A DNA stretch of 49,447 nt from a virus. Within the stretch, counting starts at the first letter, position 1; each line of letters begins with the position of its first letter. Below, one piece after another: positions 1,876 through 46,663 of this stretch. The stretch covers positions 1-49,447 of IMG/VR virus record IMGVR_UViG_3300042509_000461; one strand, written 5' to 3'. The notes below the pieces were generated by a model. The model searched no databases. It was not told where the DNA came from and saw only the letters and a list, made by a program, of their open reading frames with translations. The translations under genes were made by a program, and so were the position numbers.

Positions 1876-1876
1876 T

Positions 1877-2458: not shown

Positions 2459-2460
2459 TC

Positions 2461-3560: not shown

Positions 3561-3563
3561 TAC

Positions 3564-3956: not shown

Positions 3957-3958
3957 TG

Positions 3959-4150: not shown

Positions 4151-4151
4151 T

Positions 4152-4292: not shown

Positions 4293-4954
4293 TGAATTAC
4301 GCTGAACTCGTCGAAGCAATTAAGGGTTACACCGAAAACGACTTTCCGGATACGGTAGGGTCGGGTGGACTCACTTCGACTGAGCAAATTGATATTTTCA
4401 TCGTTAACGCCGAAGAGCGCATCTTCAACTCAGTCCAACTTCTGGACTTACGGAAGAACGTCACCGGCAGCGTGACCGCCAACAACAAATATCTTTCTGT
4501 TCCTTCGGATTGGCTTGCTACGTTTTCAATCGCGTTGATTGACGCAAATACTGGGTCGTACGAGTTCCTGCTGAATAAAGATGTGAGCTTTATTCGTTCG
4601 TCCTTCCCTAATCCAAATGTGACGGGACCGCCAACTCACTACGCTTTCTTTGATGTGAACTCCTTCATCCTTGGACCTACCCCAGACCAAAATTACGGCG
4701 CAGAACTTCACTATTTCTACTACCCGCCGTCGATTACGGTTGCAGGTTCGACGTGGTTAGGTGATAACTTTGAGAGCGTTTTACTTTACGGCGCGCTATT
4801 AGAAGCGTATACGTTCATGAAAGGCGAAGCTGACGTTATTGCTGAATACCAAAAGCGCTACAACGAAGCGATGGGTATGCTGAAGCAACTGGGCGAAGGC
4901 AAGAACCGTCAAGATATGTATCGGACTCCGCAAGTACGGTACCCAGTGAGGTAG
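4292..4954 (+). CDS. SU10-adaptor-like head-tail connector protein
   Basis: 220 residues: MNYAELVEAIKGYTENDFPD, then IDIFIVNAEERIFNSVQLLD, a beta-rich centre (YLSVPSDWLATFSIALID, YYPPSITVAGSTWLG) and a helical end (YGALLEAYTFMKGEADVIAEY). This two-helix-plus-beta layout with the LLYGALLEAYTFMK segment is typical of adaptor proteins that sit under the portal, similar to the phage SU10 adaptor and T7 tail tubular A families. It is coupled to the preceding micro-gene by a one-base overlap. Fold class is fairly safe; the specific family is from memory. Confidence 0.7.
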   Translation: MNYAELVEAIKGYTENDFPDTVGSGGLTSTEQIDIFIVNAEERIFNSVQLLDLRKNVTGSVTANNKYLSVPSDWLATFSIALIDANTGSYEFLLNKDVSFIRSSFPNPNVTGPPTHYAFFDVNSFILGPTPDQNYGAELHYFYYPPSITVAGSTWLGDNFESVLLYGALLEAYTFMKGEADVIAEYQKRYNEAMGMLKQLGEGKNRQDMYRTPQVRYPVR

Positions 4955-4959
4955 TATAG

Positions 4960-5244
4960 ATGTTTGATTTAGCAGCAGGTAATATCGGAAACGTTATGGT
5001 AATGACCTCGGATAACCGTGGGTTTACGCCTGAAGAAATTGCTGACCGCGCATTAGACAAGATCATGTACGTAGGTAGTCAGACACACCCAGCTATCCGC
5101 GATCAGGCCGAAGCTTTCCGAGAAAATATACGGGAAGTAATTGTGTTTTATATGCACGAAGCAATTCGGTCTCATAATGTAACTCTGGTAAGTAAATTTA
5201 AACAGGCGGGGCATCCAGAGCTAACCGCCATACTCGATATATAA
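4960..5244 (+). CDS. Small conserved structural-region protein
   Basis: 94 residues. After a short hydrophobic start (FDLAAGNIGNVMVMTSDNRG) the protein is helical: FTPEEIADRALDKIMYVG, then HPAIRDQAEAFRENIREVI with a C-terminal helix ending ELTAILDI. It follows the adaptor gene by five bases. I recognise the F-T-P-E-E-I-A-D-R/RDQAEAF pattern as common in phage adaptor regions, without a known function. It may be an assembly partner of the tail or neck. Confidence 0.7.
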   Translation: MFDLAAGNIGNVMVMTSDNRGFTPEEIADRALDKIMYVGSQTHPAIRDQAEAFRENIREVIVFYMHEAIRSHNVTLVSKFKQAGHPELTAILDI

Positions 5245-20964: not shown

Positions 20965-23900
20965 ATGCCTGATGTACGCATGCCCGACGGTACAGTTATA
21001 AGAAACGTACCAGCAGGAATTACTAAGGCACAGCTTAATGCTAAGCTAACGAAGAACGGGTTTGACCTCAACAGGCTGACCACGCCTAAGCAGAAGCCAA
21101 GCGCAATTGAAAATATCCCGCTAGTAGGCGGATTGCTTGCGCCTATTGCAGACATACCCTTGAGTGCGGTCGAAGGTTTAAGCGGCACTACCAAGTCAAT
21201 CGCAGATGTGTTTGGTGCCGACAATGTTGTATCCGATGCGGCTGACTATGTAGCTAAAGCAGCGGCTGCTTTGAAATCTGCTGGGTCTCGTGAAGATGCT
21301 GAAATCGCCAGTAAAATCCAGAAAGACGCTGAAGGCAAAGGTGTCTGGGAAGAAGTAAAGGCTGCAGCTAGGGCGTTCACTTACTCTCCACTAGAGAGCA
21401 TTGCCAGCGTGGCAGGTTCGGCGGCACCGTTTATCGCAGCGGGTGTTGCCACCGGAGGTACAGGAGCCGTACCCCTAGCTACTATGGCTGGGCTTGGCGC
21501 AGCGTCAGGCGCAGGTACTATAAAAGGTTCCGTGTACGATGCGGTATACAGCGAGTTCGTAAAGAACGGTGCATCTGAAGAAGACGCCGCTGCCGCCGCC
21601 GAGAAGGCGCAGGAGTATAGCGGCAAGAATATAGACCAGATTGCACTTGGTGGTGCCATAGGCGCACTTGCTTCGGCTACTGGCTTTGGCCCGCAGTTCG
21701 CTCGCAGCATAGGTAATAACGTAGTCAAGAAGGTTGCCGCCGAGGTAGCCGAGCGTGAAGCTGTAGAGGCCGTAAAGGTCGGTGCCAGAAAGAGCGTGCT
21801 GGGTGGTGTTGCCAAAAGTGCAGTTGTAGAAGCTGTACCAGAATCTGTACAAGGTGGGCAGGAAAAACTGTCCCAGAACCTAGCACTGCAGCGCGAGGGC
21901 TTCGATGTAGATACGTTTAGGGGTGTAGCTGGACAGGCTGCGTCCGAAGGCATCGCGTCCCTGTTTCTGGGTGGTTATGGTGGTGCACGTGCAGCAAAGG
22001 CGGAAAACCGTCAGATACTCACAGAAGAGATTGCCCAAGAACTTGACGCCCTGCCTGCAGATGCAGACGAGCAAACTATATCTGAAGCAGAAGCTAGATT
22101 CGTCAAGCGCGGGTTTCCCTTGGAGAAGGCAACGCAAGTTGTCGAGAACTTAAAATCCGCCAAAGAAGCTATTGACAAGCAAGCTGCAGAACTAGAGCGG
22201 GCACGTGCCGAACGGATGGCACAAGGAGAAGCTGAAGCAGCAGCCGAAGAAGGCACAGGCTCTAACTTTACTGGCCCGCCTCCGGTTGATACCGAAGAAG
22301 AAGCTGCCATGCAGCGCATGCGTGAGGCCGAGTTTGCAGGTGCAGGTGCACCACAGCAACGTAAACCATCTACTATAGAGCAAGCAGCTATTGATCTTGT
22401 TTCTGCCGTTGACGCTGGCGGTGTGCCGTTCAACACACCTAGAATAAATGCGATTGGACGCGGACTAGGGCTTGATATCGGTAAAAATGATAAACCCGAA
22501 GCCACTATCGACCGCATCCGTGCAGCGGTTGGTCGGTTTGATTTTACTCCCCCAATCTCTGAAACACAGGATACTAACGCTCCCCCTACTGGTGGCGTCA
22601 ACGCCCAGTACCGCCGTAACACAACCCAACCCACTATTACGCCAGCATTTGCTGCGACTGCAAACGAAGATGAAGTTCGTGCATTTGCTGACCAATACGG
22701 TATCGACGAAGCAGAAGCCGTTGAGCGCCTAAGTGCGGCGGCTTCGTCACCTTCAGGCATTGTATACTCACGTAGAGGACGTCCACCCAGTGCGAGCACG
22801 GTAGAAGCTGCGGGCCAAGAAGGTCTATTCGGCGCACTGCCTACACAGGAAGAAAACCGCCTCGACAAGTTTGAGGAAATCCAGCAGCGCAAACTGGAGC
22901 AAGGTGCGCTTGCACCTGAAGACCGCGAAGCGGAAAATCAGGCACGTGCCGATGAGTTTGATAGGCTGCAGCAAGAACGCGCAGCGAAAGACGAGCAGTA
23001 CACGGCTGACTTTGTAAAAAACATCGAAGATGCCATTCGTCGCGCTAACCCTGCTAACGAAGCCTATAGTGTGCAGGTTGATGCAACCAGCCCGAAGCCT
23101 TACAGGGTTGTAGGTCCAGACGGAGAGTTGTTTGCAGCCGCAGATAACCTGCAGGACTTTGAAGCACAGGCGATGGACCTTCTTCCATACGTTGCTCCCC
23201 CTACATCTATTCAAGAGACGGACTCCGCGAACCCCACCGTGGCTACATCCATGGTGCAGGAACTTACCCGTGATATTGATGCTGCGCGTGAGCGTGGCGA
23301 GATAGACAACAACCAGCGCACCGAGCTTATTCGTCAGATAGAACGCCCCGACGCATACGATAAGTATGGTCGTCCGCAGGACAACATTGCCAAGGCTGAA
23401 GAAGAAGCCCGTGCAGCAATGTCCAAGTTCCGCAACACCACAGGTGTTGAAGCCAAGGCAGCGGAAGCAGAGCTAGCCGTCGCCAACGAGAAGCTGACTA
23501 AGCTAGTAAACAACCGCATGCTGAACCCGATCAGGTCTAAGCTGCGCTCCATGGCAGAGAACCGTCAGCTTGAGCGCGAAGGCGCTACATCCCGTGTGGG
23601 CAGCGCTAAGGTGCAGCAGAAGCTAGGCGAGATGGAAGGTGCAGACACCAGTGCCGAGCAGCGCGAACAACGCGAAGCCAAAATCGACATAGCCGAAGGC
23701 CGTGTATCTAAGTACCGTAGGGGTGAAGCGCAACCGGGCCAAGTTAAGACAGACGTATCTAAGGTACGTGCAGCGGTAGATGCCATCGTGTCAGTATGGA
23801 AGGGGCCACCTGTAGTTACGGTAGTCCAGTCTGTTAACGACATAGCTGACGCTAAGGTACGTCGGGCTGTGATGCAAGATAACGCTACCAATGCAGAAGG

Positions 23901-26900
23901 CTTCGTGGCCCCTGATGGTACAGTGTATCTAATTGCCGACAACCTTGAGTCCGTAGAGCGTGCTAAGGCGGTGCTGTTCCATGAAGCTCTTGGCCACGTT
24001 GGCCTTGAGAAGCTGTTCCGTGGCGAGCTAGATAGCGCTCTGACTGCACTGTATAAAAGCAACGGTAACATACGGGCCAATACCGATGCGTGGCTAGCTG
24101 CTAACCCAGATGCCTATGCGCAGGATACCAACCGTACCGCCCGCGCAGTAGAAGAAATCCTAGCCGAGATGTCCGAGAATGGGCAGCTTAGGCCGACAAT
24201 GCTAAAGCGCATTGCAGCTATTATCCGTAACTTTGCACGTAGGCTGGGTATCAATCTGGCAATCAGCGATGCGGACGTAGAAGCTATACTGGCTGCAGGC
24301 CACGAGCGTGTCGTAAACGGTGCGCAGGAAAGCACACTCGTCAAGGGCATGCGGTATATTAACGGCTGGCGTGGTGGTGCTGCACCTACCACAAAATACT
24401 CACGGCCCAAGACCACTAAGCAGAACAAAGAGAAAATAGGAACTGCTGAAGCTAGTATAAGTCCCGGTATGCGCCGTACCCAGAAGTCTACCTCCACTAA
24501 CGGCATAGCTGAAGGTGTAGAGCAGGTTGTTAAGGGGCATAGCTGGAAAGACTGGGGCGGTGGGCTAAAGGATAACCTAGAGGCCATGGCACCACCTACC
24601 TTGGTGGCCACGCTAAAGACTATACCGACGTCTGGCATCTTAAACTGGTTCGGCCCAGATATACCCACCATACGTGAGATTGACACGTTGGTGCAGAAGA
24701 TGGTTGCCATGAAGGCCAACATACTCAAAGCTGCAGAGCAAATTGGTATGGAGTTAGACGAGTTCCTTCTGTCTGATAAAGACCAACTACTGGCCCAGAC
24801 GCAGAGCACTGCCCGTATAAATGAAATGGCACCCGACGATTTCAAGTCTGCTGACGATGCACTGGCTAATCACCCTGCCATGAAGGAGGTCGAAGCTCGC
24901 ATACTGAAGAACGCCAACGATAAGGTGTTAGCTGCCCGTATAATAGCCGAGGTAAAAGCCTTGGTTATGCAGAGCAAAGACGCAATCACCGTAAAGGGTG
25001 ACAAGGTAGCTATGTCTACCGCTATGAAGAAGTTGGTAGCGAACCTATCTAAGACAGCCATAGATAGCAAAAATACCAGTGACCAGATGAAGCAGATAGC
25101 GGAACTTACCCGTCGTATCCGCGATACACATGCTTTGTGGGACAAGCTAGGTGAGCTTAAGAACGGGCACAAGCTATACAAGGAAATACGTTCCTACTAC
25201 AAAGATATGTTCGAAGCCGAGCTTGCACTACTAGACGGTCGGATTGCGTCTATCGCCGGTACTAAAGAAGCCAAGCGTTTGCGTGACCTACGTGCAGATA
25301 TGATGCGGGAAGTTATGAACCCCGATGAATCCAAGAAGGGCGGCGACATATTCTACAATCTTGACTCAAGCTTGTTCACCAAAGACTACTTTCCGTTTAT
25401 GCGGGCAGGTAAATACTACATACGTGTATCCGCTGCCAAGGACGGCTCGCGGGAGCGTGAGTTCTACCAGTTCGAAACTGCCAAGCAGCAAATAGCTGCG
25501 AAGAAAGCGATAGCTAAGCGCTTAGGTATAGACCCTGAGAAGAACGATGGGGTACTTACTATAGGGTACGACGTCGCACAGTTGCAGGAAGAATTAAAAA
25601 CTGACGACCAGATGATGAAGAAGATATTTGACCTAGTGGGTAAAGCCAAGGCCGAGTTTGCTTCAAGTGGTGTACTAGGTGCCAGCGACTTCAAAGACCT
25701 GACGGACAGCATCTACCAGACATGGTTGCTATCTACCCCCGAACGGTCAGTACGCCGCCGGTTCATGCATGCTCAAGAGGTAGTCGGGTTCCAGCAGGAT
25801 ATCCTACAGAACTTTGCATCGCAAGCGAGCAGCTATGCTAACCAACTAAGCAAGCTGGCATACGCCGGGGACATACGCTTAAAAACCGAGGAGGCACGTG
25901 ACAACGTGTCGGACCGCCCAACTACAGAGCAGGCTAGACTTAAAGCCGCTATATATGAATTAGAACAGCGTGCCGAAGACGAGATAAACCCAAGCCCGCA
26001 GAGTTCGTTTATTAACGCCCTTAACCGTGCGTCTTACTTCTACTACCTGACAGCGCCAGCGACAGCGATGCTGCAGCTTACTTCCATACCGATACGTGTG
26101 GTGCCACGCCTGTGGCGGGATTACGGGTATGCGGAAGGCACCCGCATGTGGCTGAAGTATATGAAGATATGGAACACTCTAGGTAAAGCTAAGGTGCAGA
26201 GCACTCGCACAGGGATAGCCGGTGTGGGTGACTCGCTTGATGTCCTGATGCCCAACATACTAAGCTCTAAATTGGTTAGTGCTGACACCAAAGAAGGTAA
26301 ACTTCTACGTAGGGCACTGGCGGCAGGTATGGAGCGCAACGTGCTTGAGACCGTGCAGGATACACTAATCCAGAACGAGCGGGAAACAGGACAGAAGCAC
26401 CGTACGGGTGCAGCGCGCACCGTTGCCGAAACTGCTGCGGTAACAGGTAAAGCCATGGGCGTCATGTTCCAAGGGTTGGAAAACATCTCACGCCAAGCAG
26501 CCTACTTCATGGCGTTTGAGTTAGCGTACAAGGCAGAGACTGCTAAAAACCCCGGCGCACCTGAGAAGGTAGTGTTTGATAAGGCAGTCACCACTGCCCT
26601 AGATACTGTGCGCGATACTCTTGGTGACTACTCCAACTGGGAACGTTCACGCATAATGAAGAACGATGTGTCTCGTGCACTGTTCCTCTTCAAGATGCAT
26701 CCCATTCTGCAGACTAAGTTCCTAGTAGGCGCGATGCGAGATATCGGGCGTGGGTTGTACCCCGGAGCTTCACCAGAAGCAAAGGCCGCACGTGCGGGCG
26801 CTATGAAGGAACTAGGCGGCGTCTTGATGATGGCTGGCGTATTTGGTGGCCTTCTAGGTATGCCCCTGTACTCGGTCATGGCACTGGCGCTATCTGAAAG

Positions 26901-27747
26901 CTTTGACGAAGAAGATGATGAGGATGTGCGCAAGCTTATGGGTCTTGACCCACGTGTCGCCTACGACTCCGACATTATGTTCCGTGCATGGTTGATGGAT
27001 AAGTTCGGAGAGCCGATGGTTGGCGACGTGTCGTTGGCAGACATTCTTATACACGGCCCGCTTGGCGCTTTATCGAACACTGAACTGTCTAGCCGTACAT
27101 CACTCGACCTCAAGAATATGTGGTTCCGCGAAGCAGTTGCAGGTGACTCCACTGGTGACAGCATAATAAAAACACTGCTGGCTAACGTAGCAGGTGGGCA
27201 GATGCTTATTCAGGCGTTCAATGCAAAGGATAACTTTGCTGAAGGCGATATGTATGGTGGTATCAAGAAGATGGCACCTGCGTTTGTTCGGTCATGGGTA
27301 GCAGCGGAGCAAGGGGAAGCCGAAGGTGTGGTTACCCGCAAGGGTGATGTCATTATAGATAAGAACGATATCACTGGGTTGGATACGTTCCGCACGATAT
27401 CTGGCTTCCGACCACTGCGTCTTGCTAGATGGCAGGACTACTACATCACTCGTAGTAAGAACGACAAAAAGATAAAGGCGGAGAAGACCCAGCTGCTATC
27501 CACCTTGGATAGGAAGCTACGTGAGGGTGATATTACTTCTAAGGAGCAACTACAGGAGTTCATCACCGACGAGGTTATTCCGTTCAACCGCACGTACCCA
27601 GACCCAAGCTTCATAATTACCGAAGAGACCATCATGCGGTCACTCAAGGGTCGTGCGGATGTACGGGGCCGCACAGTGCAGGGCATGCGGCTTGAGAAGA
27701 AGACTGCAGAGAAAGATATCGGTATGGCAGATAAGTTCCGCCCATAA
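20965..27747 (+). CDS. 2260-residue polyvalent ejection protein with HEALGH motif
   Basis: The largest gene of the window. The N-terminus (MPDVRMPDGTVIRNVPAGIT) is a short docking domain. Residues about 145-250 are Gly/Ala-rich hydrophobic segments (APFIAAGVATGG, IALGGAIGALASATGFGP). Residues 380-900 are charged and low in complexity. At residues 1006-1011 is HEALGH in the context KAVLFHEALGHVGLEKLF, a zinc metallopeptidase-like motif described for phage 'polyvalent' proteins. A helical part follows (YQTWLLSTPERSVRRRFMHA near 1590) and a C-terminal hydrophobic segment near 1950-1970 (LMMAGVFGGLLGMPLYSVMA). Size, order and domains suit a protein injected with the DNA that acts in the host early. 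The exact domain families need a profile search. Confidence 0.75.
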   Translation: MPDVRMPDGTVIRNVPAGITKAQLNAKLTKNGFDLNRLTTPKQKPSAIENIPLVGGLLAPIADIPLSAVEGLSGTTKSIADVFGADNVVSDAADYVAKAAAALKSAGSREDAEIASKIQKDAEGKGVWEEVKAAARAFTYSPLESIASVAGSAAPFIAAGVATGGTGAVPLATMAGLGAASGAGTIKGSVYDAVYSEFVKNGASEEDAAAAAEKAQEYSGKNIDQIALGGAIGALASATGFGPQFARSIGNNVVKKVAAEVAEREAVEAVKVGARKSVLGGVAKSAVVEAVPESVQGGQEKLSQNLALQREGFDVDTFRGVAGQAASEGIASLFLGGYGGARAAKAENRQILTEEIAQELDALPADADEQTISEAEARFVKRGFPLEKATQVVENLKSAKEAIDKQAAELERARAERMAQGEAEAAAEEGTGSNFTGPPPVDTEEEAAMQRMREAEFAGAGAPQQRKPSTIEQAAIDLVSAVDAGGVPFNTPRINAIGRGLGLDIGKNDKPEATIDRIRAAVGRFDFTPPISETQDTNAPPTGGVNAQYRRNTTQPTITPAFAATANEDEVRAFADQYGIDEAEAVERLSAAASSPSGIVYSRRGRPPSASTVEAAGQEGLFGALPTQEENRLDKFEEIQQRKLEQGALAPEDREAENQARADEFDRLQQERAAKDEQYTADFVKNIEDAIRRANPANEAYSVQVDATSPKPYRVVGPDGELFAAADNLQDFEAQAMDLLPYVAPPTSIQETDSANPTVATSMVQELTRDIDAARERGEIDNNQRTELIRQIERPDAYDKYGRPQDNIAKAEEEARAAMSKFRNTTGVEAKAAEAELAVANEKLTKLVNNRMLNPIRSKLRSMAENRQLEREGATSRVGSAKVQQKLGEMEGADTSAEQREQREAKIDIAEGRVSKYRRGEAQPGQVKTDVSKVRAAVDAIVSVWKGPPVVTVVQSVNDIADAKVRRAVMQDNATNAEGFVAPDGTVYLIADNLESVERAKAVLFHEALGHVGLEKLFRGELDSALTALYKSNGNIRANTDAWLAANPDAYAQDTNRTARAVEEILAEMSENGQLRPTMLKRIAAIIRNFARRLGINLAISDADVEAILAAGHERVVNGAQESTLVKGMRYINGWRGGAAPTTKYSRPKTTKQNKEKIGTAEASISPGMRRTQKSTSTNGIAEGVEQVVKGHSWKDWGGGLKDNLEAMAPPTLVATLKTIPTSGILNWFGPDIPTIREIDTLVQKMVAMKANILKAAEQIGMELDEFLLSDKDQLLAQTQSTARINEMAPDDFKSADDALANHPAMKEVEARILKNANDKVLAARIIAEVKALVMQSKDAITVKGDKVAMSTAMKKLVANLSKTAIDSKNTSDQMKQIAELTRRIRDTHALWDKLGELKNGHKLYKEIRSYYKDMFEAELALLDGRIASIAGTKEAKRLRDLRADMMREVMNPDESKKGGDIFYNLDSSLFTKDYFPFMRAGKYYIRVSAAKDGSREREFYQFETAKQQIAAKKAIAKRLGIDPEKNDGVLTIGYDVAQLQEELKTDDQMMKKIFDLVGKAKAEFASSGVLGASDFKDLTDSIYQTWLLSTPERSVRRRFMHAQEVVGFQQDILQNFASQASSYANQLSKLAYAGDIRLKTEEARDNVSDRPTTEQARLKAAIYELEQRAEDEINPSPQSSFINALNRASYFYYLTAPATAMLQLTSIPIRVVPRLWRDYGYAEGTRMWLKYMKIWNTLGKAKVQSTRTGIAGVGDSLDVLMPNILSSKLVSADTKEGKLLRRALAAGMERNVLETVQDTLIQNERETGQKHRTGAARTVAETAAVTGKAMGVMFQGLENISRQAAYFMAFELAYKAETAKNPGAPEKVVFDKAVTTALDTVRDTLGDYSNWERSRIMKNDVSRALFLFKMHPILQTKFLVGAMRDIGRGLYPGASPEAKAARAGAMKELGGVLMMAGVFGGLLGMPLYSVMALALSESFDEEDDEDVRKLMGLDPRVAYDSDIMFRAWLMDKFGEPMVGDVSLADILIHGPLGALSNTELSSRTSLDLKNMWFREAVAGDSTGDSIIKTLLANVAGGQMLIQAFNAKDNFAEGDMYGGIKKMAPAFVRSWVAAEQGEAEGVVTRKGDVIIDKNDITGLDTFRTISGFRPLRLARWQDYYITRSKNDKKIKAEKTQLLSTLDRKLREGDITSKEQLQEFITDEVIPFNRTYPDPSFIITEETIMRSLKGRADVRGRTVQGMRLEKKTAEKDIGMADKFRP

Positions 27748-35099: not shown

Positions 35100-35687
35100 T
35101 TATCTGGATTTCCCTTGGATACGGTCAGCCACTAACGTAGCATACCCCGCTATATCAAGCCAGCTATCTGTGTGGTGTGGGTCACCAATGATGATACGCG
35201 CAATCTTACTCGCTATCATATCAAGGGCTTCTTGATGGTCTGCTTGTAGTCCTGCATTTTGTTCGTCTAGGGCGCTACGGATGAGTTCTTTCATTTCCTG
35301 TGCAAAAAGCGCTACGCTAATGAAGCTACCGTAAGTGGTTGCACGTTCGTCGAGGATTGTGTCTACGTCATCGACTTCCGGCTCAGACAAGCACTCTCTG
35401 GTGCAGGGTATACCAAGCACTGCTTCCGCCTCTGCCTCTGCCCTCCAGCCTTCGACCATCTCTTTGACCTTGTTGTTGTGCTCTGCGGCGGTCTGCCGCA
35501 CCGTTTCCACCACTTCACCTGCCGCTTCCCTAAGCTTCTTCTTGGCTAAGTAGATGTAGCTGTCACTAACTAACATGCGCTCTTTAATCTGCTTCACAGT
35601 CTCACCGCCTTTGAGCATGTCTGCGACTGCATCAAACTTAGTTTTGTACTGGGATGGTTGGTATTTGGGTACGTTAATCTTTCTCAT
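35100..35687 (-). CDS. DUF6378-like protein with N-terminal HTH
   Basis: 195 residues. Residues 12-55 form an HTH (DAVADMLKGGETVKQIKERM, LVSDSYIYLAKKKLRE). The C-terminal 85 residues carry ATTYGSFISVALFAQEMKEL, ALDMIASKIARIIIGDP, then HHTDSWLDIAGYATLV, which from memory matches DUF6378, a helical phage domain similar to MazG-type nucleotide hydrolases. It may act on nucleotides, with the HTH giving DNA contact; this is inference. Ribosome site GAAGGAGCAAG. Confidence 0.75.
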   Translation of the reverse strand: MRKINVPKYQPSQYKTKFDAVADMLKGGETVKQIKERMLVSDSYIYLAKKKLREAAGEVVETVRQTAAEHNNKVKEMVEGWRAEAEAEAVLGIPCTRECLSEPEVDDVDTILDERATTYGSFISVALFAQEMKELIRSALDEQNAGLQADHQEALDMIASKIARIIIGDPHHTDSWLDIAGYATLVADRIQGKSR

Positions 35688-38431: not shown

Positions 38432-38722
38432 TTATGGTCTTAAATGTTCTGGCATAAACTCGCAGTAGTATTTGATTTGTCCACCACTACTACCGCGAAA
38501 GCCAATTGCACGGGCGCAATCTGCCCAAGTCTCCCCCTGCTTCCGCATTATAACGACCCTACGTAGCTTAGTACCCGATATCCCTGCATCGGGGTCGTGC
38601 ATGTTCCCCCTACGCGCTCGGTTCGACGGTCGGTTCAACCACGCTTCGTACTCTTCGGCTGGTGGTGTCGCCGTAGGCATCATGTGGACATCACGGTATC
38701 CTCTTATACCTTTAACCTCCAT
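38432..38722 (-). CDS. Small HTH-like protein next to DNA polymerase
   Basis: 96 residues, GGAGCAAG site, overlapping the end of the polymerase gene by 11 bases. The N-terminal half is basic with Pro (MMPTATPPAEEYEAWLNRPS). The C-terminal half looks like an HTH: KLRRVVIMRKQGETWADCAR, AIGFRGSSGGQIKYYCEFMP. The E-T-W-A-D-C-A-R-A-I-G ... G-Q-I-K-Y-Y pattern suits DNA binding. Role unknown. Confidence 0.65.
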   Translation of the reverse strand: MEVKGIRGYRDVHMMPTATPPAEEYEAWLNRPSNRARRGNMHDPDAGISGTKLRRVVIMRKQGETWADCARAIGFRGSSGGQIKYYCEFMPEHLRP

Positions 38723-40580
38723 AGCTTGCTCCTATCTTGCTTTCACAATTCAATGGTAACGTTGGTGCCCACTTGGGGCGCATGCGCATGCATGCTTCGA
38801 CAAACGCACGGGCCTTGTCGGCCTCTTCTACGGGGGCAATCACCCCCACGGCATCGTGCACGGTCATCACTACACGGTACTTACGTGCGACCATCAGCAT
38901 CTGCTCACCTATAATAATACGGGCAAGTGCCTGACACACGTTCTCTATAAGCTTACCGCCGTATATATACGTAGGTAGCGTAGCCCGACCCCTCTTGACG
39001 TCGTAGACAAACTGGTCACGGCCCGACTTCTGGTCCCGCTGCTTGCGTAGGTTATCGTACCTCAAGTACATGCCGTTAGGCAGACGCACACCAAACATAT
39101 CAATAAGCACGGCTTCATGCTTGCCTAGAGGTGCGGTCCGAGCGGACATAAGCGCGTCGAGAGCCTTGTCACCCTCCGCCCACAAGAGCGGTATGCGTTC
39201 GAACTGGTCCCTATACTTATACACGATGCTGGCGCACTCTGACGACGACAGCGATACGCCCATGGTCTCCAGCTGTACCTTAAACTTAGCCGCACCCATG
39301 CCATACCCAGCCCCAAGGATGGTCATCTTACCTATGAAGCGCTCGGGGTGCTCGTTTATCTCGTTTACCGGCTTGTTATATATCTCCGACGCCATGATTT
39401 TGTACGGGTCGTACTGCATGTCCATCTTCTCTACACCCGCTGCGACTTCCGCATTGTTCTTATCAAAGAACTCCACAAGGTCTTCCTGCCCAGCTAGCCA
39501 CGCCAAGGTGCGCGCTTCAATCTGCGACGAGTCACAGTCGATAAACACATAGCCTTTTGGTGCTAGCATGGACTTCTTGAGTGGTGACTTGCGTGGTAGG
39601 TTCTGGAGGTTCACCTTGTCGTCGCCACCCCACCTACCTGTGTGGGCTGCATAGTAACGTAGTGGGACTGGTAATGTCCCCCGGTCGGCAATAGCTATAA
39701 ACCTCTCGGTGCGCGTTTCCTCAAGTGTAGACTTCACACCTAGTCGCGCAGCTACTACCGCCTGCACTGTCGGGTTGGGGTGCTCAAGCAGTGCCTTGAA
39801 CCCCTCGTCACTCTTGGCGAAGGCAAATGCTTCCTTGCCTGTCTTCGGACTTACCTTCGTAGGTGGGACTACACCCATGTCACGTAGCAGCAAAGCTAGC
39901 TTCGGGTTGGACATCAGTGCGTCTTTGTCCGCCTCGACTGCTTCCATAAGCTCGGCTTTTTTGCTCCTCACATTAGACACGTGTTTTGTGAGGACTTGTT
40001 TGTCTAAGACCAGCACCGGCTCCGTAAACATTCTGATAGTAAGGTCGATAAGCCGCAGTTCAGACACAGGCATGAGTGGTGCCGTGACCTCAAACAACTT
40101 GTGCGTTAGCTCTACGTCATTGATGCAGTACTCACCGTACCGCTCTAGGTCCTCGTCAGTAAAGTCCAGCCGCCGCTTACCCAGCGCGTTGATAACCTCT
40201 GTGCCCTTCTCGCCCAGACCATAGCGCTCGACTGCTTTAGCTAGGCTGTTACCAGCATGCGGCCCGTCGATAGCACGAAGCATAGACAGGGTATCTGCAA
40301 TTCGCTTGGGTCGAATGTCATAACACCAGTTAAGGATTGCCATGTCGAACATAGCGTTGTGAGCCACAGCTACGCTGTTAGCCCAGTCCCACTTATCTAG
40401 CCACCGCTTGGTTTGCGCCTTGGTCCCGCTGAACCATTCAGTTGGTTCATTGTTACGCTTGACTGCAACACCGATGGTCTCGAACTGTGAGTCGCGGACA
40501 TACTCCTCCGTTGTCAGCTTAGATAAGCTAAACTTCTGGCTGTAGTAGGTTTCGAAGTCGATGTTCAGAATGTCCATCAT
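38712..40580 (-). CDS. Family A DNA polymerase with 3'-5' exonuclease
   Basis: 622 residues, usual size for phage PolA. Exonuclease motifs: NIDFETYY (D8, E10), AHNAMFDMAI (D79), YCINDVELT (D155). Polymerase: AHTGRWGG and NLQNLPR, motif A DSSQIEART (D350, E355), motif B FIGKMTILGAGYGMG (K418, Y426), motif C MTVHDAVG (H575, D576, A577). Motif C normally reads HDE; here the Glu is Ala. It copies the genome with proofreading. ATGATG start: 40580 overlaps the previous stop (ATGA); 40577 has better spacing from AGGA. Confidence 0.93.
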   Translation of the reverse strand: MMDILNIDFETYYSQKFSLSKLTTEEYVRDSQFETIGVAVKRNNEPTEWFSGTKAQTKRWLDKWDWANSVAVAHNAMFDMAILNWCYDIRPKRIADTLSMLRAIDGPHAGNSLAKAVERYGLGEKGTEVINALGKRRLDFTDEDLERYGEYCINDVELTHKLFEVTAPLMPVSELRLIDLTIRMFTEPVLVLDKQVLTKHVSNVRSKKAELMEAVEADKDALMSNPKLALLLRDMGVVPPTKVSPKTGKEAFAFAKSDEGFKALLEHPNPTVQAVVAARLGVKSTLEETRTERFIAIADRGTLPVPLRYYAAHTGRWGGDDKVNLQNLPRKSPLKKSMLAPKGYVFIDCDSSQIEARTLAWLAGQEDLVEFFDKNNAEVAAGVEKMDMQYDPYKIMASEIYNKPVNEINEHPERFIGKMTILGAGYGMGAAKFKVQLETMGVSLSSSECASIVYKYRDQFERIPLLWAEGDKALDALMSARTAPLGKHEAVLIDMFGVRLPNGMYLRYDNLRKQRDQKSGRDQFVYDVKRGRATLPTYIYGGKLIENVCQALARIIIGEQMLMVARKYRVVMTVHDAVGVIAPVEEADKARAFVEACMRMRPKWAPTLPLNCESKIGASYGG

Positions 40581-40777
40581 CTTATCCTAGTTACGTGAAT
40601 AGTGGTGCCTATGGCGCGGGTTATGTAGTAGCGCTCTGACCGTTCGTTCTGGTTGTGTGCAGCGCGGCGGATTAACCTCTTGGAATGGTCGGTAGGCGTG
40701 TCGAATATGCGTACCTCACCTACCCCCATCGCGTTAATGCCGTACTTAGACTTCCTTATGTCCGTACCAAACGTCAT
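40577..40777 (-). CDS. Small basic protein coupled to DNA polymerase
   Basis: 66 residues: MTFGTDIRKSKYGINAMGVG, EVRIFDTPTDHSKRLIRRAA, HNQNERSERYYITRAIGTTI. Arg-rich, beta-alpha-beta looking, no ribbon. It is linked by ATGA overlaps on both sides (to the 118-residue gene upstream and PolA downstream). The GxGEVRIF...SKRLIRRAAH pattern recalls the Arc/Omega or small HTH style of phage proteins but is not decisive. Function unknown. Confidence 0.65.
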   Translation of the reverse strand: MTFGTDIRKSKYGINAMGVGEVRIFDTPTDHSKRLIRRAAHNQNERSERYYITRAIGTTIHVTRIR

Positions 40778-41130
40778 GCGTTTTGTTCCCGCTCCGCTAT
40801 GTGCATATCCAGCAGTCGCTTCTCAAAGAATTTGTTTAGTGCCTTAAGTAATGCAGCCGAGCCTTCCTTGGCGTTCTTATTCCACTTGCGTTCCGAGTCG
40901 CTGTTCAAGCCGGTTGAGTTAGCGTTGGGTTTTGCGGTTGTTGCATGCTCTACCTTTGGTCGCACCACTTCTACCTTCTTCTCTGTGCCCTTCTTCATCT
41001 TGTCGCGCAGTTGAAGAACGCGCCTCACATCCACACCGTAATATGATGCAATGTATTTCATGTCAGTTATGTACCCAATCGCACGGATGATATCTTGGTC
41101 GGTCTGGCCTAACCCTTTATACTTTGTCAT
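40774..41130 (-). CDS. HTH-containing small protein
   Basis: 118 residues. The first 45 residues form an HTH-like unit (QTDQDIIRAIGYITDMKYIA, SYYGVDVRRVLQLRDKM). The middle is Lys/Pro/Ala linker; the end (GSAALLKALNKFFEKRLLDM) is helical, possibly for dimerisation. The pattern I-A-x-Y-Y-G-V-x-x-R-x-V resembles short phage regulators. It overlaps the VRR-NUC gene by 14 bases. Confidence 0.65.
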   Translation of the reverse strand: MTKYKGLGQTDQDIIRAIGYITDMKYIASYYGVDVRRVLQLRDKMKKGTEKKVEVVRPKVEHATTAKPNANSTGLNSDSERKWNKNAKEGSAALLKALNKFFEKRLLDMHIAEREQNA

Positions 41131-41431
41131 TGGTTCGTTCTTTCATATTGTGCACAAGGCCGCGCACCATGTCCCAGTTCTCATCATTGGCTACCACAGC
41201 TACGCCGTTACACCGACGTATGGCCTCAAGCTCACGCACCTGTAGGGCTGTTGGCTTGTTGGTTCCTGCCTTGACTTCGATGGCTAAGAAGTGTCCATTA
41301 ACGCAGCATATAATGTCAGGGACGCCACTACGACCAAAGCCATGGGTGGCGGGGAAGAAGTAATATACTCCTTCCTCCTTCAACACCTTGACTATTTTTT
41401 CTTTGACTCTTTTCTCCGGCGTTGACGCCAT
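41117..41431 (-). CDS. VRR-NUC nuclease
   Basis: 104 residues, the usual size of a stand-alone VRR-NUC. Active-site pattern: RSGVPDIICCVNGHFLAIEV with D39, then E52 and K54 (IEVKAG), and Q64 (TALQVRELEA). These match the PD-(D/E)xK core. Such phage enzymes act as structure-specific nucleases, in some cases as Holliday junction resolvases. It sits upstream of DNA polymerase and fits recombination or branch resolution before packaging. Ribosome site GAAGGAGCAAA. Confidence 0.88.
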   Translation of the reverse strand: MASTPEKRVKEKIVKVLKEEGVYYFFPATHGFGRSGVPDIICCVNGHFLAIEVKAGTNKPTALQVRELEAIRRCNGVAVVANDENWDMVRGLVHNMKERTNDKV

Positions 41432-41464: not shown

Positions 41465-42325
41465 CTAGGTATTGCTAGTCAATATATAAAACGTATCGTC
41501 TGCGGTGCGGATACCGACACCATCAATTATAGTATCCATCTCGGTCATCTTGAGTAGGGCAAGTGACGTCTTTATGTGGTCCGACAGTGCATCTAGGTTG
41601 GTTGACTGCGCCGCTCCACCAAAAGGCATGGCGACAATGTCCCGTGGACGCTCAATCAACAGTATGTGGTGTGCACTAGCAATGTCCTTAGCTACACGGT
41701 CACTCTCGGCTAGACTCTGATACGCTTCCTTGGCTCGCATAACCTCGGGCTTATCTTGAACAGCTAAGAACTCCGCCCACCTGTCACCTGATGTCAGGTA
41801 TGCCAGCATCGGTTCATGCAACAGCTCAACATTGCGCGTGTGCGCTCGCCTATCTTTGTAGGTGGCTTGCTGCATGGCAGTGAAAGCCTTCTTGTGCTTC
41901 TCGTTGGCAAGCTCGTCCAACGTGAGCGGGTAGCACTCCTTCAAGACTTCAGCGGCAATGACCTTGAAGTGCTTACTCTTCTTGCGCATGCCTACCAGAC
42001 GCTTTGCGTTTATGCGGTGGCTACTAGCTGCGTATACAGTTGTGCCCCCGTGGTAGTCTTTCTCTATGTTGCCAATCTTCTCACCGTTATCATATATGTC
42101 GAAGTTGTCATGCAGCACATGGTTGACCTCATCACCAATCCCCCTAGTGCCAAAGCCCCTACCATGAAACTCCCAGTGTGGACGCTTGTGCTGAATGGCC
42201 TCGATTAGCGGGACCATGAACGGATGCACTATGGAGTCCTTCGCACGTTCTGTGGCGGCGTTATCTACACCCGCAACGGTGTAGTAGGTGTTGTGCAGGT
42301 TTAGTTTGTATATGGTTTTAGTCAT
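41465..42325 (-). CDS. Unknown protein in MoxR-VWA group
   Basis: 286 residues, starting at ATG 42325 with AAGGAG seven bases upstream; an in-frame ATG at 42346 would overlap the upstream gene. Text: MTKTIYKLNLHNTYYTVAGV, then GIGDEVNHVLHDNFDIYDNG, AASSHRINAKRLVGMRKKSK, DRRAHTRNVELLHEPMLAYL, and ending DGVGIRTADDTFYILTSNT. Mixed alpha/beta, no recognised domain. Sequence features and place make it the fifth gene of the MoxR-VWA set. Its function is unknown. Confidence 0.7.
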   Translation of the reverse strand: MTKTIYKLNLHNTYYTVAGVDNAATERAKDSIVHPFMVPLIEAIQHKRPHWEFHGRGFGTRGIGDEVNHVLHDNFDIYDNGEKIGNIEKDYHGGTTVYAASSHRINAKRLVGMRKKSKHFKVIAAEVLKECYPLTLDELANEKHKKAFTAMQQATYKDRRAHTRNVELLHEPMLAYLTSGDRWAEFLAVQDKPEVMRAKEAYQSLAESDRVAKDIASAHHILLIERPRDIVAMPFGGAAQSTNLDALSDHIKTSLALLKMTEMDTIIDGVGIRTADDTFYILTSNT

Positions 42326-42339
42326 CGTCTTGCTCCTTC

Positions 42340-43191
42340 TTACCAATCAAATTGTCCTAGTACCGAGTCCACATGCGCCTTGAGGTCACTGCGTGTTATC
42401 TCGTCCTTACGAATGTCCTCGACGTCTACACCGCTGATAGCCTTCTCCAGTGCTAGCCTAGCTGTCTCAAGCGTCGGGTCCTTAGTGATGTTTAGATGTG
42501 ACAGGAGTTGGCACATCTCTTGTGCGTTGGTTACGAACGTAGACCGGAACTGCTTGGTCTCTTCGCCTTGTGGCTCGGTCAGCTTCTCGCTCATGGTCAG
42601 CAGTGTCGTATGTAGTTTATCCCATGTAGTTTTCATAGCATCGCCCACACGGTCGGTGTATGCTGTCTCGTACTGGTTGCGTAGGTGAGCTAGCTCGTCG
42701 TTGTTGATGTCAAGACGGAAGTCACCCACCTCTGGCACAGGGCTGAACACCATGCGGAACCCGAACTTAGACGCCACTTCCTCTGCGCTTGGGTAGTTGG
42801 CACCATCGAACAGGTCACCAAGGCAGGTCTGTGCGGTCACTATTAGGTCGGGGTACTCTGCTACGAACTTAGACACCTTAGAGTTGAAGTATGCTGCACG
42901 TGCGTCCGCCTCTCGCTTATACTCTAGGAACATAGACGTAGGCAGCAGCCTCACACCCTTGTCGGACCAAGGCAGTGTGCGTCCGTTGTGCCACGTGCGA
43001 CAGAGCGCAGCGTAGTCAGCTATGTCCTTACGCAAGCTAGTGCCAGCCATAAGGTTCTTTCGAAACTTACCAGCGTCAGCCACAGCATGTGCGTCTAGTG
43101 TTACCTTGTCAGTTGTCTTGCGGTCTACGATAGCTGCTGTCCATACAGAGATGTTCATCTCCACCAGCATTGCTGAACTTGATATACTCAT
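42340..43191 (-). CDS. DUF3150-like protein
   Basis: 283 residues from ATG 43191 (AAGGAGCAAGCAC leader); upstream ATG 43266 is rejected because it overlaps the VWA gene. N-terminus MLVEMNISVWTAAIVDRKTT, then KFRKNLMAGTSLRKDIADYA, TWHNGRTLPWSDKGVRLLPT. The helical rest ends in a coiled segment (LETARLALEKAISGVDVEDI). Proteins of this style (DUF3150, from memory) are found beside CobS/MoxR-like ATPases and VWA proteins, exactly as here. Probably an adaptor or substrate-binding partner of the ATPase. Family label moderate. Confidence 0.65.
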   Translation of the reverse strand: MSISSSAMLVEMNISVWTAAIVDRKTTDKVTLDAHAVADAGKFRKNLMAGTSLRKDIADYAALCRTWHNGRTLPWSDKGVRLLPTSMFLEYKREADARAAYFNSKVSKFVAEYPDLIVTAQTCLGDLFDGANYPSAEEVASKFGFRMVFSPVPEVGDFRLDINNDELAHLRNQYETAYTDRVGDAMKTTWDKLHTTLLTMSEKLTEPQGEETKQFRSTFVTNAQEMCQLLSHLNITKDPTLETARLALEKAISGVDVEDIRKDEITRSDLKAHVDSVLGQFDW

Positions 43192-43202
43192 GTGCTTGCT
43201 CC

Positions 43203-44390
43203 TTAGTTGATATGTATTGTCTTGCCTGTTGATGCGACCATCTTGCCACCGCCTGTGATTACCCACAGTATCGGTGCGCCATTCCAGTCCGAACCCCAGT
43301 TAGGCACGAACCCGTCTGTGAACATGATGATGCAGTCGGCCTTGATATCCTGCTCCTTGAGGTATTGCTCCATAGCGCCGGGGTTCGTACCACCCCCACC
43401 TACTGGCTTAGTGGAGTTACGGAATGACCCGCGTGTCGAGTCATCATACACTTCATGCCCTGCCATGGTGTGGTCCCAGTAGATGATGTGTAGCTTGTCA
43501 GGCGTAACCACAGATAAGATAGCGTCAGTCTCCGACAGGTTCCGTGTGTGGTCCTCGTTTGTGATGGACCCAGACGTATCACAGCCAATCACGATGTTTT
43601 TCACGCGCTCACCGACGAGGCTGGGCATGATAGTATCTGATGATAGAAACCTACGGTTTGGTTTGCGCCACGATGAGTAGTCACGGCCAGCACAGGTAGT
43701 GTTGACGAACTCCTGTAACAGCGTACGCCAGTCTACCTTGGGCTCGAGGATGTCCGACAACTCACGCGACATACCACCAGCACCTTTGCCGTGCATCTTC
43801 TGTGCAGCAATCATACCCTGACGGATAGCTTGGTCTACTTGCTTAGACAGCTCTTCCTTCTCTTCCTTGGTCAGTTCGCTAGCACCTTCCCAGTCATGCT
43901 CGTCGAAGCCACCGCTGCCGCCACCGTCACCGCCTTCTTGCTTCTCCTTCTTGAGAATGTCGAACACCTGCTTGGTATTCATACCTGCGAACCTGCGGTC
44001 TATAAGACCTGCTGGCTTACCATCCTTCTGCGGCATAGCTACCACCGTGCCACTCGGGTCACGGGTGATAATCTCTAGGTTGATGACGTAGTCACAGGCC
44101 ATGTTAGTTAGCTGTGCGTCCTCCTGCCATAGCTTCTGCCATGTAGTTAGGTGGCGATACATCTTGTGGAATGACTCATGCACCACGACGAAAGCTACCT
44201 CTGGTATGGATAGCGCGTCGATGAAGGCGCGTCCGTATATCTCGTCACGCCCGTTAGTAGCTGCGGTTGGTGTGGTCTCACACACCTCCTTCGTGCCCAT
44301 CATGAAGATGCCGGACATGTCTGCGAACAACGGGTTACGCATGAGGTCGATTACCACACGTGTTAGTTTACGCTCGGCTGTTAGTGCCAT
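43203..44390 (-). CDS. VWA protein with HExxH metallopeptidase-like domain
   Basis: 395 residues, DUF2201-like. The N-terminal part has a zinc motif HESFH (H71, E72, H75) in AFVVVHESFHKMYRHL and the helix DAQLTNMACDYVINLEI. A Gly/Glu/Lys linker follows (150-205). The C-terminal VWA-like domain has the metal-ion site DTSGS (271-275), GGGGTNPGAM with T335, and IIMFTDGF with D359. All five key positions are intact. Such proteins work with MoxR AAA+ ATPases, which here are one gene upstream. Protease or chaperone activity on an unknown target is inferred. Confidence 0.85.
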   Translation of the reverse strand: MALTAERKLTRVVIDLMRNPLFADMSGIFMMGTKEVCETTPTAATNGRDEIYGRAFIDALSIPEVAFVVVHESFHKMYRHLTTWQKLWQEDAQLTNMACDYVINLEIITRDPSGTVVAMPQKDGKPAGLIDRRFAGMNTKQVFDILKKEKQEGGDGGGSGGFDEHDWEGASELTKEEKEELSKQVDQAIRQGMIAAQKMHGKGAGGMSRELSDILEPKVDWRTLLQEFVNTTCAGRDYSSWRKPNRRFLSSDTIMPSLVGERVKNIVIGCDTSGSITNEDHTRNLSETDAILSVVTPDKLHIIYWDHTMAGHEVYDDSTRGSFRNSTKPVGGGGTNPGAMEQYLKEQDIKADCIIMFTDGFVPNWGSDWNGAPILWVITGGGKMVASTGKTIHIN

Positions 44391-44550
44391 TAGCTTGCTC
44401 CTTTAGTCTGTTAGTTGCGTATACGTATGCGCTTAGCTCGTCGGGGTGGTCGAAGAATGAAACGTGCATGACTTTGCGATTGGATAGATTAACCTGCCAT
44501 ATCGACCAAATCTCACTACGCTTCACATCCACCACGTGAAGCCCATCCAC
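44368..44550 (-). CDS. 60-residue protein between MoxR and VWA genes
   Basis: GTG start overlapping the TAG of the ATPase gene by one base; the end overlaps the VWA start by 23 bases. Text: MDGLHVVDVKRSEIWSIWQV, NLSNRKVMHVSFFDHPDELS, AYVYATNRLKEQ. Mixed, Trp and aromatic rich, looks like a small beta domain with a final helix. Function unknown. The overlaps make it part of the MoxR-VWA operon. Confidence 0.6.
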   Translation of the reverse strand: MDGLHVVDVKRSEIWSIWQVNLSNRKVMHVSFFDHPDELSAYVYATNRLKEQANGTNSRA

Positions 44551-45623
44551 TAGAGGATGTCCACGTTAGCCAATGCCCAGTCGCGGAACTTAGTAGACGT
44601 AAAGCCAATCTGCTTCTTGTCTGGGTTCTTACACAGGTTGACTGCGAACACAGCTTGCCACTCTGGTGCCATGCGCTCGACATACTCCATGAACGGCGTG
44701 ATTGTATTGCGGTCAATCTTGGCAATCGCACCGAACACCATGACTGCGCATGCGCCGGGACTCTCGGGCAGCTTGGCCTTGGCTGGGTCCTTAGTGATGT
44801 CGTCCCACGTAGGTAGCTGGTCTTGATACTCTACGAAGGCATGCATGTCCCGCGCAGCGGACTCACCGATTGTACCCACCATGGCTGCGAGTAGCGCGTT
44901 GGCTGTCAGCTTCTCACGCTGCTTGAGTACGTCGTTAGACGCAAGCTGCAACGACCGACCTGATACGAAGCTACCCTGCTGCCGCTTGGGGTTGAAGATA
45001 TACGGATTACTCTCTTGGTCACCGTCCATGTATGATGCCATGGCATGCGGGAACTGATTAACCCAAGCCATGACAACGGGGTCGATGTCGTTAGTAACTG
45101 CCCATGCCAACCACTCGTCTGCGTCTGGCTTGCGCACCGTAACCGTAGTTACGCGGTTGCGTGTATGTGGCTTGACTGTATCGCCAAGACCTTCGCCTGC
45201 CATGTTGCCAGTCATAAGCACGATGGAACCATCGCGCAGCACGTTGTTACCTAGCCGTGGCTTGCGCGACTCCAGCAGAGGGTGAAGCATATTCTGCACA
45301 GGCTGCGGTGCCTTGGTGAACTCGTCTAGCATGATAACCACAGGCTTGCCGGACTGTATCTGGAAGATAGCGTTAGCGAAGTACTCGGTTATCTGCTTGT
45401 CACGGTTGATACTCGGCATGGCGATGTCGCCAAGGTCGGCTTGTGCGCAGTCAAAGTATGCGTAGGCGTATGCGTCACCGAAGTGCCGCTCCAGTGCGCC
45501 CATGATGGATGACTTGCCAATCCCAGGCTCACCTTGAAGGAAGAACCGATTGTTAGGGCAGTTGATGATAAGGCTTGCAGCTTCTGCAAGTGACACAGTT
45601 GTGCCGAAGTTTAATGCACTCAT
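44550..45623 (-). CDS. MoxR/CobS-type AAA+ ATPase
   Basis: 357 residues. Walker A GEPGIGKSS (31-39), Walker B VVIMLDEFTKA (D100, E101), sensor 1 VLMTGN (N140), and an Arg-rich segment after it (RNRVTTVTVRKPDADEWL). C-terminal part has FVSGRSLQLASNDVL and WDDITKDPAKAKLPESPGAC. MoxR ATPases pair with VWA proteins to remodel or insert metals into target proteins; the partner here is the VWA-HExxH gene. Ribosome site AAGGAGCA, with a dyad (45643-45658) just before it. Confidence 0.88.
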   Translation of the reverse strand: MSALNFGTTVSLAEAASLIINCPNNRFFLQGEPGIGKSSIMGALERHFGDAYAYAYFDCAQADLGDIAMPSINRDKQITEYFANAIFQIQSGKPVVIMLDEFTKAPQPVQNMLHPLLESRKPRLGNNVLRDGSIVLMTGNMAGEGLGDTVKPHTRNRVTTVTVRKPDADEWLAWAVTNDIDPVVMAWVNQFPHAMASYMDGDQESNPYIFNPKRQQGSFVSGRSLQLASNDVLKQREKLTANALLAAMVGTIGESAARDMHAFVEYQDQLPTWDDITKDPAKAKLPESPGACAVMVFGAIAKIDRNTITPFMEYVERMAPEWQAVFAVNLCKNPDKKQIGFTSTKFRDWALANVDIL

Positions 45624-45642
45624 GATATGCTCCTTGTTATTG

Positions 45643-45658
45643 CTTAACTACAGTTAAG
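45643..45658 (-). promoter_or_regulatory. Operator-like dyad CTTAACT-N2-AGTTAAG
   Basis: Perfect 7+7 inverted arms with two centre bases, about 20 bases upstream of the MoxR gene start. Two further copies stand at 48105 and 48745, each just before a leftward start codon. A stem with a two-base loop is not a good RNA hairpin, so a protein-binding DNA site is more likely. Confidence 0.55.
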
Positions 45659-45745
45659 ACTTTGCTTGGTTGTTGTGGTTGTCGTCCGCTTGTGCGGCTC
45701 TTTATTGTCCTATGGTTATACCACAGGTATTTGCTTAGACCAAAC

Positions 45746-46663
45746 TCACCTGAAGTATCGGCCATAGCGGTCGTGTACGCACTTACCTGCTTCCACCCGT
45801 TCTTTGGTAAACAACTCGTCACGGTAGTGTTTATGCATAGTGTGCGTCAATTCTAGTCTGGCCTCGTTCAACAGCATGCGCCAGCGACCAGCGGTTAGCC
45901 ATGCCATAGCTTTGTACCAGCTCTCGGTATCACCGCTCTCTACTAAGCTAATCAACTGTGGCGGACCCTCGGGTGACCAGCTCAAGCCACCATGTGCTGG
46001 CAGACCCATCTCCCTACGCTCTTCGGGGGGAATAGACGGTAACCGTGGGTTATCTCTGCTCTCCTTGTCCCACGGACTATACTGCTTATCGTCCGCGCTT
46101 AGTTTAGCCATGACCTCGACATACTGCATGAACGGTTTGTATTGCTTGGTTAGCTTGGCCTTCTCTTGCTTGTTCATGATGTGCTTATACGTAGGTGTCG
46201 GGTTGAGGTAGATGGGTGTATCGTGTTCGCGCAGTATGAACACTGCTTTGCGTGGGTTATTGTATCGTAGCTGTAGCGGATACTGCCCGATAACTTCTTC
46301 ACCATCGACATGCGATACCGCATGCACCCAGTCCTCGTTATACTTACGCTGGATGTTAAGCACTGCTATGCGCTGTATACGCTCACGACACGCCGCACTT
46401 AAGTTCTGCTCAATAGTCACGCGCCCGTCAGGGTGGTAGGCCAGCAGTGCTTTGTTCTGGTCCTTCTGCCACGTGTTACCTATGCACACCGCTTTGTCCG
46501 TGTCGCGTATGTAGATAGCCAACCACTTCTGGTCGCGCCTACCCGCTGGCTTGGTTCCGTCCTTGTCACCTCTGATTGGTTCGACCTTGTTGAAGTGTGC
46601 GAGTGCAGCTGTGTAGCTGCGTAGTACGGGTAGTGCCCCGTATGTGTTCCAATTCAATGCCAT
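45746..46663 (-). CDS. Unknown early protein upstream of MoxR
   Basis: 305 residues, AAGGAGAAGTGAG leader. Text includes ALNWNTYGALPVLRSYTAAL, RDQKWLAIYIRDTDKAVCIG, YHPDGRVTIEQNLSAACRER, NPRKAVFILREHDTPIYLNP and LPAHGGLSWSPEGPPQLISL. The first half looks like a beta-rich domain repeating a strand-turn-strand pattern (W-L-A-I-x-x-R-D; V-T-I-x-Q); the rest is helical. No known family recognised. It ends 123 bases upstream of the MoxR start, separated by the dyad. Confidence 0.7.
   Translation of the reverse strand: MALNWNTYGALPVLRSYTAALAHFNKVEPIRGDKDGTKPAGRRDQKWLAIYIRDTDKAVCIGNTWQKDQNKALLAYHPDGRVTIEQNLSAACRERIQRIAVLNIQRKYNEDWVHAVSHVDGEEVIGQYPLQLRYNNPRKAVFILREHDTPIYLNPTPTYKHIMNKQEKAKLTKQYKPFMQYVEVMAKLSADDKQYSPWDKESRDNPRLPSIPPEERREMGLPAHGGLSWSPEGPPQLISLVESGDTESWYKAMAWLTAGRWRMLLNEARLELTHTMHKHYRDELFTKERVEAGKCVHDRYGRYFR

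Follow-up and report, generated by a model that had tools for sequence, protein, structure and literature searches.

Why would a phage carry, on one strand and close together, a MoxR-like AAA+ ATPase, a protein joining a metallopeptidase domain to a von Willebrand factor A (VWA) domain, and a DUF3150 family protein, and on what would such a set of proteins act? The question is raised by the viral record IMGVR_UViG_3300042509_000461 (IMG/VR), whose 49,447 bp are called the window below. The window has no nucleotide similarity to known phages; read over its whole length, its structural genes run rightward, and the genes for replication, together with others of unknown function, form a leftward block. 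An initial annotation had described six linked leftward open reading frames (ORFs) in that block as one module, and all six were found at 41465-46663, on the minus strand (to which the coordinates of these genes and their motifs refer) and with the motifs as claimed. The survey of relatives described here, however, shows that the six genes are unequal: three form a core, hereafter the triad, whereas a 60-residue ORF occurs in close relatives only, and the flanking products p286 and p305 are phage-specific and evolve faster. We propose, with a probability of about 45%, that the triad carries out ATP-driven remodelling or processing of nucleoprotein in genome establishment or replication, and not virion building.

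The first core subunit is a 357-residue ATPase (44550-45623; Pfam AAA_5, 3.4e-8; phrog_1297 'ATPase', 5.6e-47). Its AAA_5 score of 34 bits exceeded the cut-off of 22, and the two Walker motifs as well as the sensor and arginine residues were all present; placement in the MoxR clade is tentative, the VWA partner gene being present and the top Pfam match being AAA_5. Among 63 sequences, G31, G34, G36 and K37 of Walker A (GEPGIGKS, residues 31-38; 45510-45533) were conserved at 94% and the Walker B acidic pair D100-E101 (45321-45326) at at least 95%, N140, R157 and R223 being the other conserved residues. The second subunit (395 residues; 43203-44390; phrog_1314, 1e-81) contains in one chain a DUF2201 metallopeptidase and a VWA domain, both above curated cut-offs (PF13203, 1.3e-26, 94.2 bits versus 23.2; PF09967, 5.6e-10, 39.9 bits versus 26.4). 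In its zincin motif HESFH (residues 71-75; 44166-44180), H71 and H75 were found in 157/157 ungapped homologues and E72 in 156/157; D100, which lies in an NxAxDxxxN motif (44091-44093) and is likewise present in 157/157, is a candidate third zinc ligand. An HExxH motif followed by a conserved candidate ligand makes this protein, as judged from sequence, a putative peptidase. The metal ion-dependent adhesion site (MIDAS) of the VWA domain was complete in 159 sequences: D271, S273 and S275 of DTSGS (residues 271-275; 43566-43580) and D359 (43314-43316) were invariant, and T335 (43386-43388) was threonine in 158 and serine in one. HESFH, DTSGS, T335, D359 and the intact Walker motifs were thus exactly as the initial annotation had given them. 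Relatives of the VWA-metallopeptidase occurred in 748 of 50,697 phage records. PHROG 1314 is labeled 'HNH endonuclease', and RefSeq names gp25 of phage N4 likewise; since only metallopeptidase and VWA domains were matched (in N4 gp25, L087 165-1307, PF13203 at 3.1e-87 and PF09967 at 1.4e-46) and neither gp25 nor the window protein had an HNH match in Pfam, this label appears to be wrong.

The third subunit is a protein of 283 residues (42340-43191, ATG start at 43191). It has no Pfam match of its own and its family membership rests on close homologues, of which 14 of 49 matched PF11348 (best E value, 5.5e-8), so that the label 'DUF3150-like' was right; the homologue in cyanophage MinM2 is deposited as DUF3150. 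An AlphaFold2 model built from the 49-sequence alignment, with a predicted local distance difference test score (pLDDT) of 81, predicts a small beta-containing N-terminal part followed by long helices. A fold search with this model gave no significant match in the PDB; vinculin and PA28 were rejected as fold relatives, being long-helix matches with template-modeling (TM) scores below 0.3. The motif PxPExGDFR is strongly conserved among phages and lies in a loop that is modeled with lower confidence (pLDDT 64 for block 151-160). It was considered as a loop docking to the MIDAS, but GDFR is replaced by SQFG in Burkholderiales plasmids, so that a universal acidic docking residue is not supported at this place.

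The linkage of these genes was evident in two viral sets. Of 80 viral contigs collected by the VWA protein, 75 also encode MoxR and 77 DUF3150, without exception on the same strand; in six of the 80, DUF3150 lay upstream of MoxR, not downstream of VWA. A second set was collected by DUF3150 alone, against selection bias, and in the 42 of its viral loci that are flanked by 3 kb or more on both sides MoxR, VWA and p286 were each found in 42/42 and p305 in 32/42. Across lineages, three gene orders occurred (MoxR-VWA-DUF3150, DUF3150-MoxR-VWA and MoxR-DUF3150-VWA) and the linkage persisted in each; the triad, in three gene orders, was also found on contigs of metagenome-assembled genomes (MAGs) of several bacterial groups, on one of which a phage integrase adjoined it. 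On another, L100, genes for a TOTE primase and for a homologue of Rad52 lay near the triad. The scattered, unlinked arrangement that the initial annotation had named as speaking against a module did not occur in this survey of gene order, and the joining of MoxR, VWA-metallopeptidase and DUF3150 into one linked module is strongly supported by both viral sets and by the plasmids described below. Cyanophages MinM2 and Pag-Yong1 have the order MoxR-DUF3150-VWA, and profile comparison revealed no counterparts of p286 or p305 in Pag-Yong1. Two genes after VWA, the latter phage carries a gene deposited as 'anti-CRISPR protein AcrVA2' (L089 19051-20091), a name unsupported by any Pfam match. Records OQ594354, OL906435 and PP438419 bear different cyanobacterial hosts in their names, are each 65,014 bp long and encode identical DUF3150 proteins; they are likely one phage.

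Plasmids provided the evidence on where the triad might act. Forty-four were found with a MAG DUF3150 protein as the query and 41, mostly from Burkholderiales, with a plasmid DUF3150 query. In 41/41 of these records the VWA gene was on the strand of DUF3150, and in 39/41 it was at most 95 nt away, the two exceptions being a partial VWA match and a DUF3150 gene split by an IS21-family insertion (L200, Burkholderia cenocepacia pBcp895-1, 1670-4993); MoxR was upstream in 10/10 such plasmids inspected. Profiles built from phage proteins recognized the plasmid VWA, MoxR and DUF3150 proteins; intact copies of the last matched at 1e-44 to 1e-65. The MoxR-DUF3150-VWA cluster of Burkholderiales, Variovorax, Simplicispira and Rhodovastum plasmids therefore resembles that of phages in having the three core proteins close together on one strand, but differs in that p286 and p305 were not detected and in its neighbors: several plasmids carry VirB11/TrbC/VirB3/VirB4-type type IV secretion (transfer) genes directly or closely downstream of the triad, and one has PRTRC genes upstream.

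These copies bear directly on the sole published proposal that we found, namely virion assembly or maturation, in which the MoxR-VWA pair would assemble, and the peptidase process, structural proteins. PMC7824862 proposes such a role for the pair of jumbo phages, citing the MoxR-vWA system of Acidianus two-tailed virus, and the N4 gp24/gp25 homologues of roseophage RPP1 have a second structural module close by (PMC4193335). Conjugative plasmids, however, make no virion. Moreover, no VWA match was obtained in phages DSL-LC04, HTVC023P, HTVC027P and CRP-901, which have a structural protein in common with the window phage, and the window module is surrounded by replication genes, the structural genes being on the other strand. 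We therefore regard virion assembly as improbable; the reproducible third subunit and the plasmid triad weaken it and make the question testable.

The roles offered by the initial annotation were takeover, anti-defence and replication-associated remodelling, and the last of these gained support from synteny. Downstream of the module the window encodes a VRR-NUC/Hjc-like nuclease (41117-41431, minus strand; PF01870, 1.1e-5) and a family-A DNA polymerase with a 3'-5' exonuclease (38712-40580, minus strand; PF00476, 1e-23), both of which are neighbors and not part of the core. Of 55 loci with enough flank, 47 have PolA downstream on the strand of the module, within 2.6-6.5 kb, and 48 have the nuclease downstream. 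Similar contexts were seen in Rhizobium phage RHph_TM3_14A, where the MoxR-VWA pair is followed by PolA, and in Schitoviridae phages nACB1 and SBP1, which have a helicase and a polymerase after the VWA gene. As plasmids make no virions, as structural relatives lack a VWA match and as the module stands beside a DNA polymerase gene, we favor remodelling or processing of nucleoprotein in establishment or replication, a need common to phages and conjugative plasmids, over the virion as the site of action. The triad would then be a three-protein machine in which a ring of the MoxR-like AAA+ ATPase supplies ATP-driven force, the metallopeptidase-VWA protein serves as its cofactor, and DUF3150 acts as the dedicated third component, its part being probably that of a helical adaptor or scaffold. 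If Rea1/midasin and other MoxR-VWA pairs are a guide, a partner may dock to the Mg2+-bearing MIDAS via an acidic residue, to be pulled or repositioned by the ring and clipped or gripped by the zincin domain. Nucleoprotein complexes, either the element's own or the host's, are the most likely target.

Several observations weigh against this reading. Proximity to the polymerase may reflect only the modular architecture of phage genomes, and on plasmids the neighbors are transfer and PRTRC genes, not replication genes. The locus counts are not phylogenetically independent, for the contigs are related and L002-L004 and L013 are near-identical viruses. DUF3150 was not detected beside the MoxR-VWA pair in N4-like phages, phage G, SCTP-2, CRP-7 or plasmid pSYSA. 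For the pair-only phages N4, G, SCTP-2, SBP1, nACB1, CRP-7, KS_7 and RHph_TM3_14A, this negative was obtained with the family profile and, for most of them, also with the Pfam DUF3150 profile or, for two adjacent proteins, with hhalign; DUF3150 is thus not universally needed. The VWA proteins of Paraburkholderia plasmids L180 (10914-12191) and L197 (3501-4790) have lost HExxH (ALKVMQV) and kept the MIDAS, making them apparent natural pseudo-peptidases, and one MAG protein (L094) has HAxxH, so proteolysis is dispensable in some lineages. Since the zinc motif can be lost while the MIDAS stays, docking seems to be more basic than proteolysis. A bolder version of the mechanism is a split AAA+ zinc protease of mobile elements, in which ring and zincin would be separate proteins coupled through the MIDAS, DUF3150 the adaptor and p286 a phage substrate receptor. 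We consider this version doubtful; if true, energy-dependent proteases would gain a new mechanistic class, one directed against an obstacle common to phages and conjugative plasmids.

The main rival to nucleoprotein remodelling is counter-defence or host takeover, in which, shortly after entry, the machine would disassemble or cleave complexes of host defence or regulation, and p286 and p305 would be the adaptors that specify its target. The carriers, phages and conjugative plasmids, both face host defences at entry, and a survey of polyvalent proteins argues that such challenges are common to phages and conjugative elements (PMC5512222). The rates of evolution speak on both sides. Every gene tested against close relatives had a lower rate of nonsynonymous (dN) than of synonymous (dS) substitution, and under such purifying selection the ORF content is not due to chance; p286 (dN 0.22-0.47) and p305 (dN 0.16-0.27) evolve much faster than MoxR, the slowest gene (dN 0.01-0.06), while the core triad is highly conserved, which is not what an arms race would suggest. 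Furthermore, N4 gp24/gp25 belong to the core of their phage group and are described as middle genes (PMC7650795, PMC4193335), where the initial annotation spoke of an early region. This is closer to a housekeeping role, and no defence-linked partner was found. Counter-defence is accordingly a possible but, in our estimate, rather unlikely explanation. Under nucleoprotein remodelling, the fast-evolving p286, often with p305, would be a phage acquisition that may specify the target.

These phage-only additions to the core gave few clues from homology. The 286-residue p286 (41465-42325, ATG start at 42325) has a confidently predicted fold (AlphaFold2 model from 91 sequences, pLDDT 94.9) without a PDB match at E ≤ 0.001; a viral structure library yielded three significant matches, all to unnamed proteins of uncultured phages, and PARIS AriA was rejected as noise (TM about 0.15, E > 0.1). 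Neither p286 nor p305 (45746-46663) nor the 60-residue ORF (44368-44550, GTG start) had a convincing Pfam or PHROG family match, and sequence searches of the PDB returned nothing above chance level for VWA, p286 and p305 and no match at all for MoxR. An AAGGAG ribosome-binding site lies just 5' of five of the six ORFs, the exception being the GTG-started one, for which none was clear. The initial annotation's several one-base stop/start overlaps were reduced to a single 1-nt overlap between MoxR and the 60-residue ORF: the latter overlaps VWA by 23 nt, and gaps of 122, 11 and 14 nt separate p305 from MoxR, VWA from DUF3150 and DUF3150 from p286, respectively.

Elsewhere in the window, a 118-residue protein encoded between the nuclease and polymerase genes (40774-41130, minus strand) is fast-evolving (dN 0.19-0.42), and the C-terminal part of the product of 35100-35687 (minus strand) matches PHROGs named phosphofructokinase (phrog_474, 2.8e-17). 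A 2260-residue protein (20965-27747, plus strand), whose C-terminal part matches DarB-like antirestriction proteins (phrog_10089, 1.3e-36) and phrog_11358, is probably a polyvalent protein; that it might be a substrate of the VWA-zincin is an idea only.

A host-directed benefit unrelated to replication or entry, such as stress tolerance or competition between mobile elements, was also weighed. Many plasmid copies of the triad reside on non-mobilizable megaplasmids, and Synechocystis pSYSA carries a two-gene MoxR-VWA version, with no DUF3150 detected, near toxin-antitoxin-type genes (L203 5295-7573). Phage genomes, however, retain the module with intact active-site residues under strong purifying selection, and we judge this explanation very unlikely.

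How does the triad compare with known systems? A MoxR AAA+ protein with a VWA-MIDAS partner is the common architecture of chelatase-type systems, and a metal- or cofactor-insertion role like that of CobST or MoxR-CoxE, in which the pair would activate a metalloenzyme, comes to mind. A zincin domain, however, is not known to be part of CobT, whereas the window VWA protein has the PF13203 domain. In the phages and plasmids inspected, moreover, the triad was seen next to neither a CobN-like gene, the partner in a CobNST cobaltochelatase, nor a metalloenzyme client gene. Such a role is thus the least likely of those considered, even though several such systems described in PMC7159879 combine MoxR AAA+ and VWA-MIDAS proteins. 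FtsH-type AAA+ proteases hold AAA+ and zinc protease domains in one chain, whereas here they are encoded by separate genes, which may nevertheless work similarly. Escherichia coli RavA-ViaA likewise pairs a MoxR ATPase with a VWA cofactor, but ViaA is not known to have a DUF2201 metallopeptidase domain, nor the system a DUF3150 partner. The virus-encoded MoxR-vWA pair of Acidianus two-tailed virus, assigned to tail assembly, has no peptidase domain according to PMC7824862. In VMAP/FtsH ternary conflict systems, VMAP stands beside MoxR and vWA (PMC7159879), whereas the third component here matches DUF3150. Two phage systems are also close to that of the window. The jumbo-phage pair has the metallopeptidase N-terminal to vWA and an adjoining MoxR ATPase; the window belongs to a lineage of phages of about 50-65 kb and adds a conserved DUF3150 gene and p286, and the passages of PMC7824862 on the pair describe no DUF3150 partner. 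In N4-like phages (Schitoviridae), gp24 (AAA+ ATPase) and gp25 (vWFA) are group core genes expressed as middle transcripts (PMC7650795, PMC4193335); gp25 has the domains of the window VWA protein, and the window-family profile matches it at 3.1e-38, but no relative of DUF3150 or p286 was detected in the N4 record. N4 gp24/gp25, as a tractable viral model, and the plasmids, as a non-viral one, are directly comparable. Among the open-licence PMC papers searched we found none that treats DUF3150 together with phages or MoxR, and no description of the DUF3150 component, p286/p305 or the plasmid copies. Whereas the MoxR/zincin-VWA pair was already known, its DUF3150 third subunit, the phage-specific p286 and p305, and its sharing with conjugative plasmids may be new.

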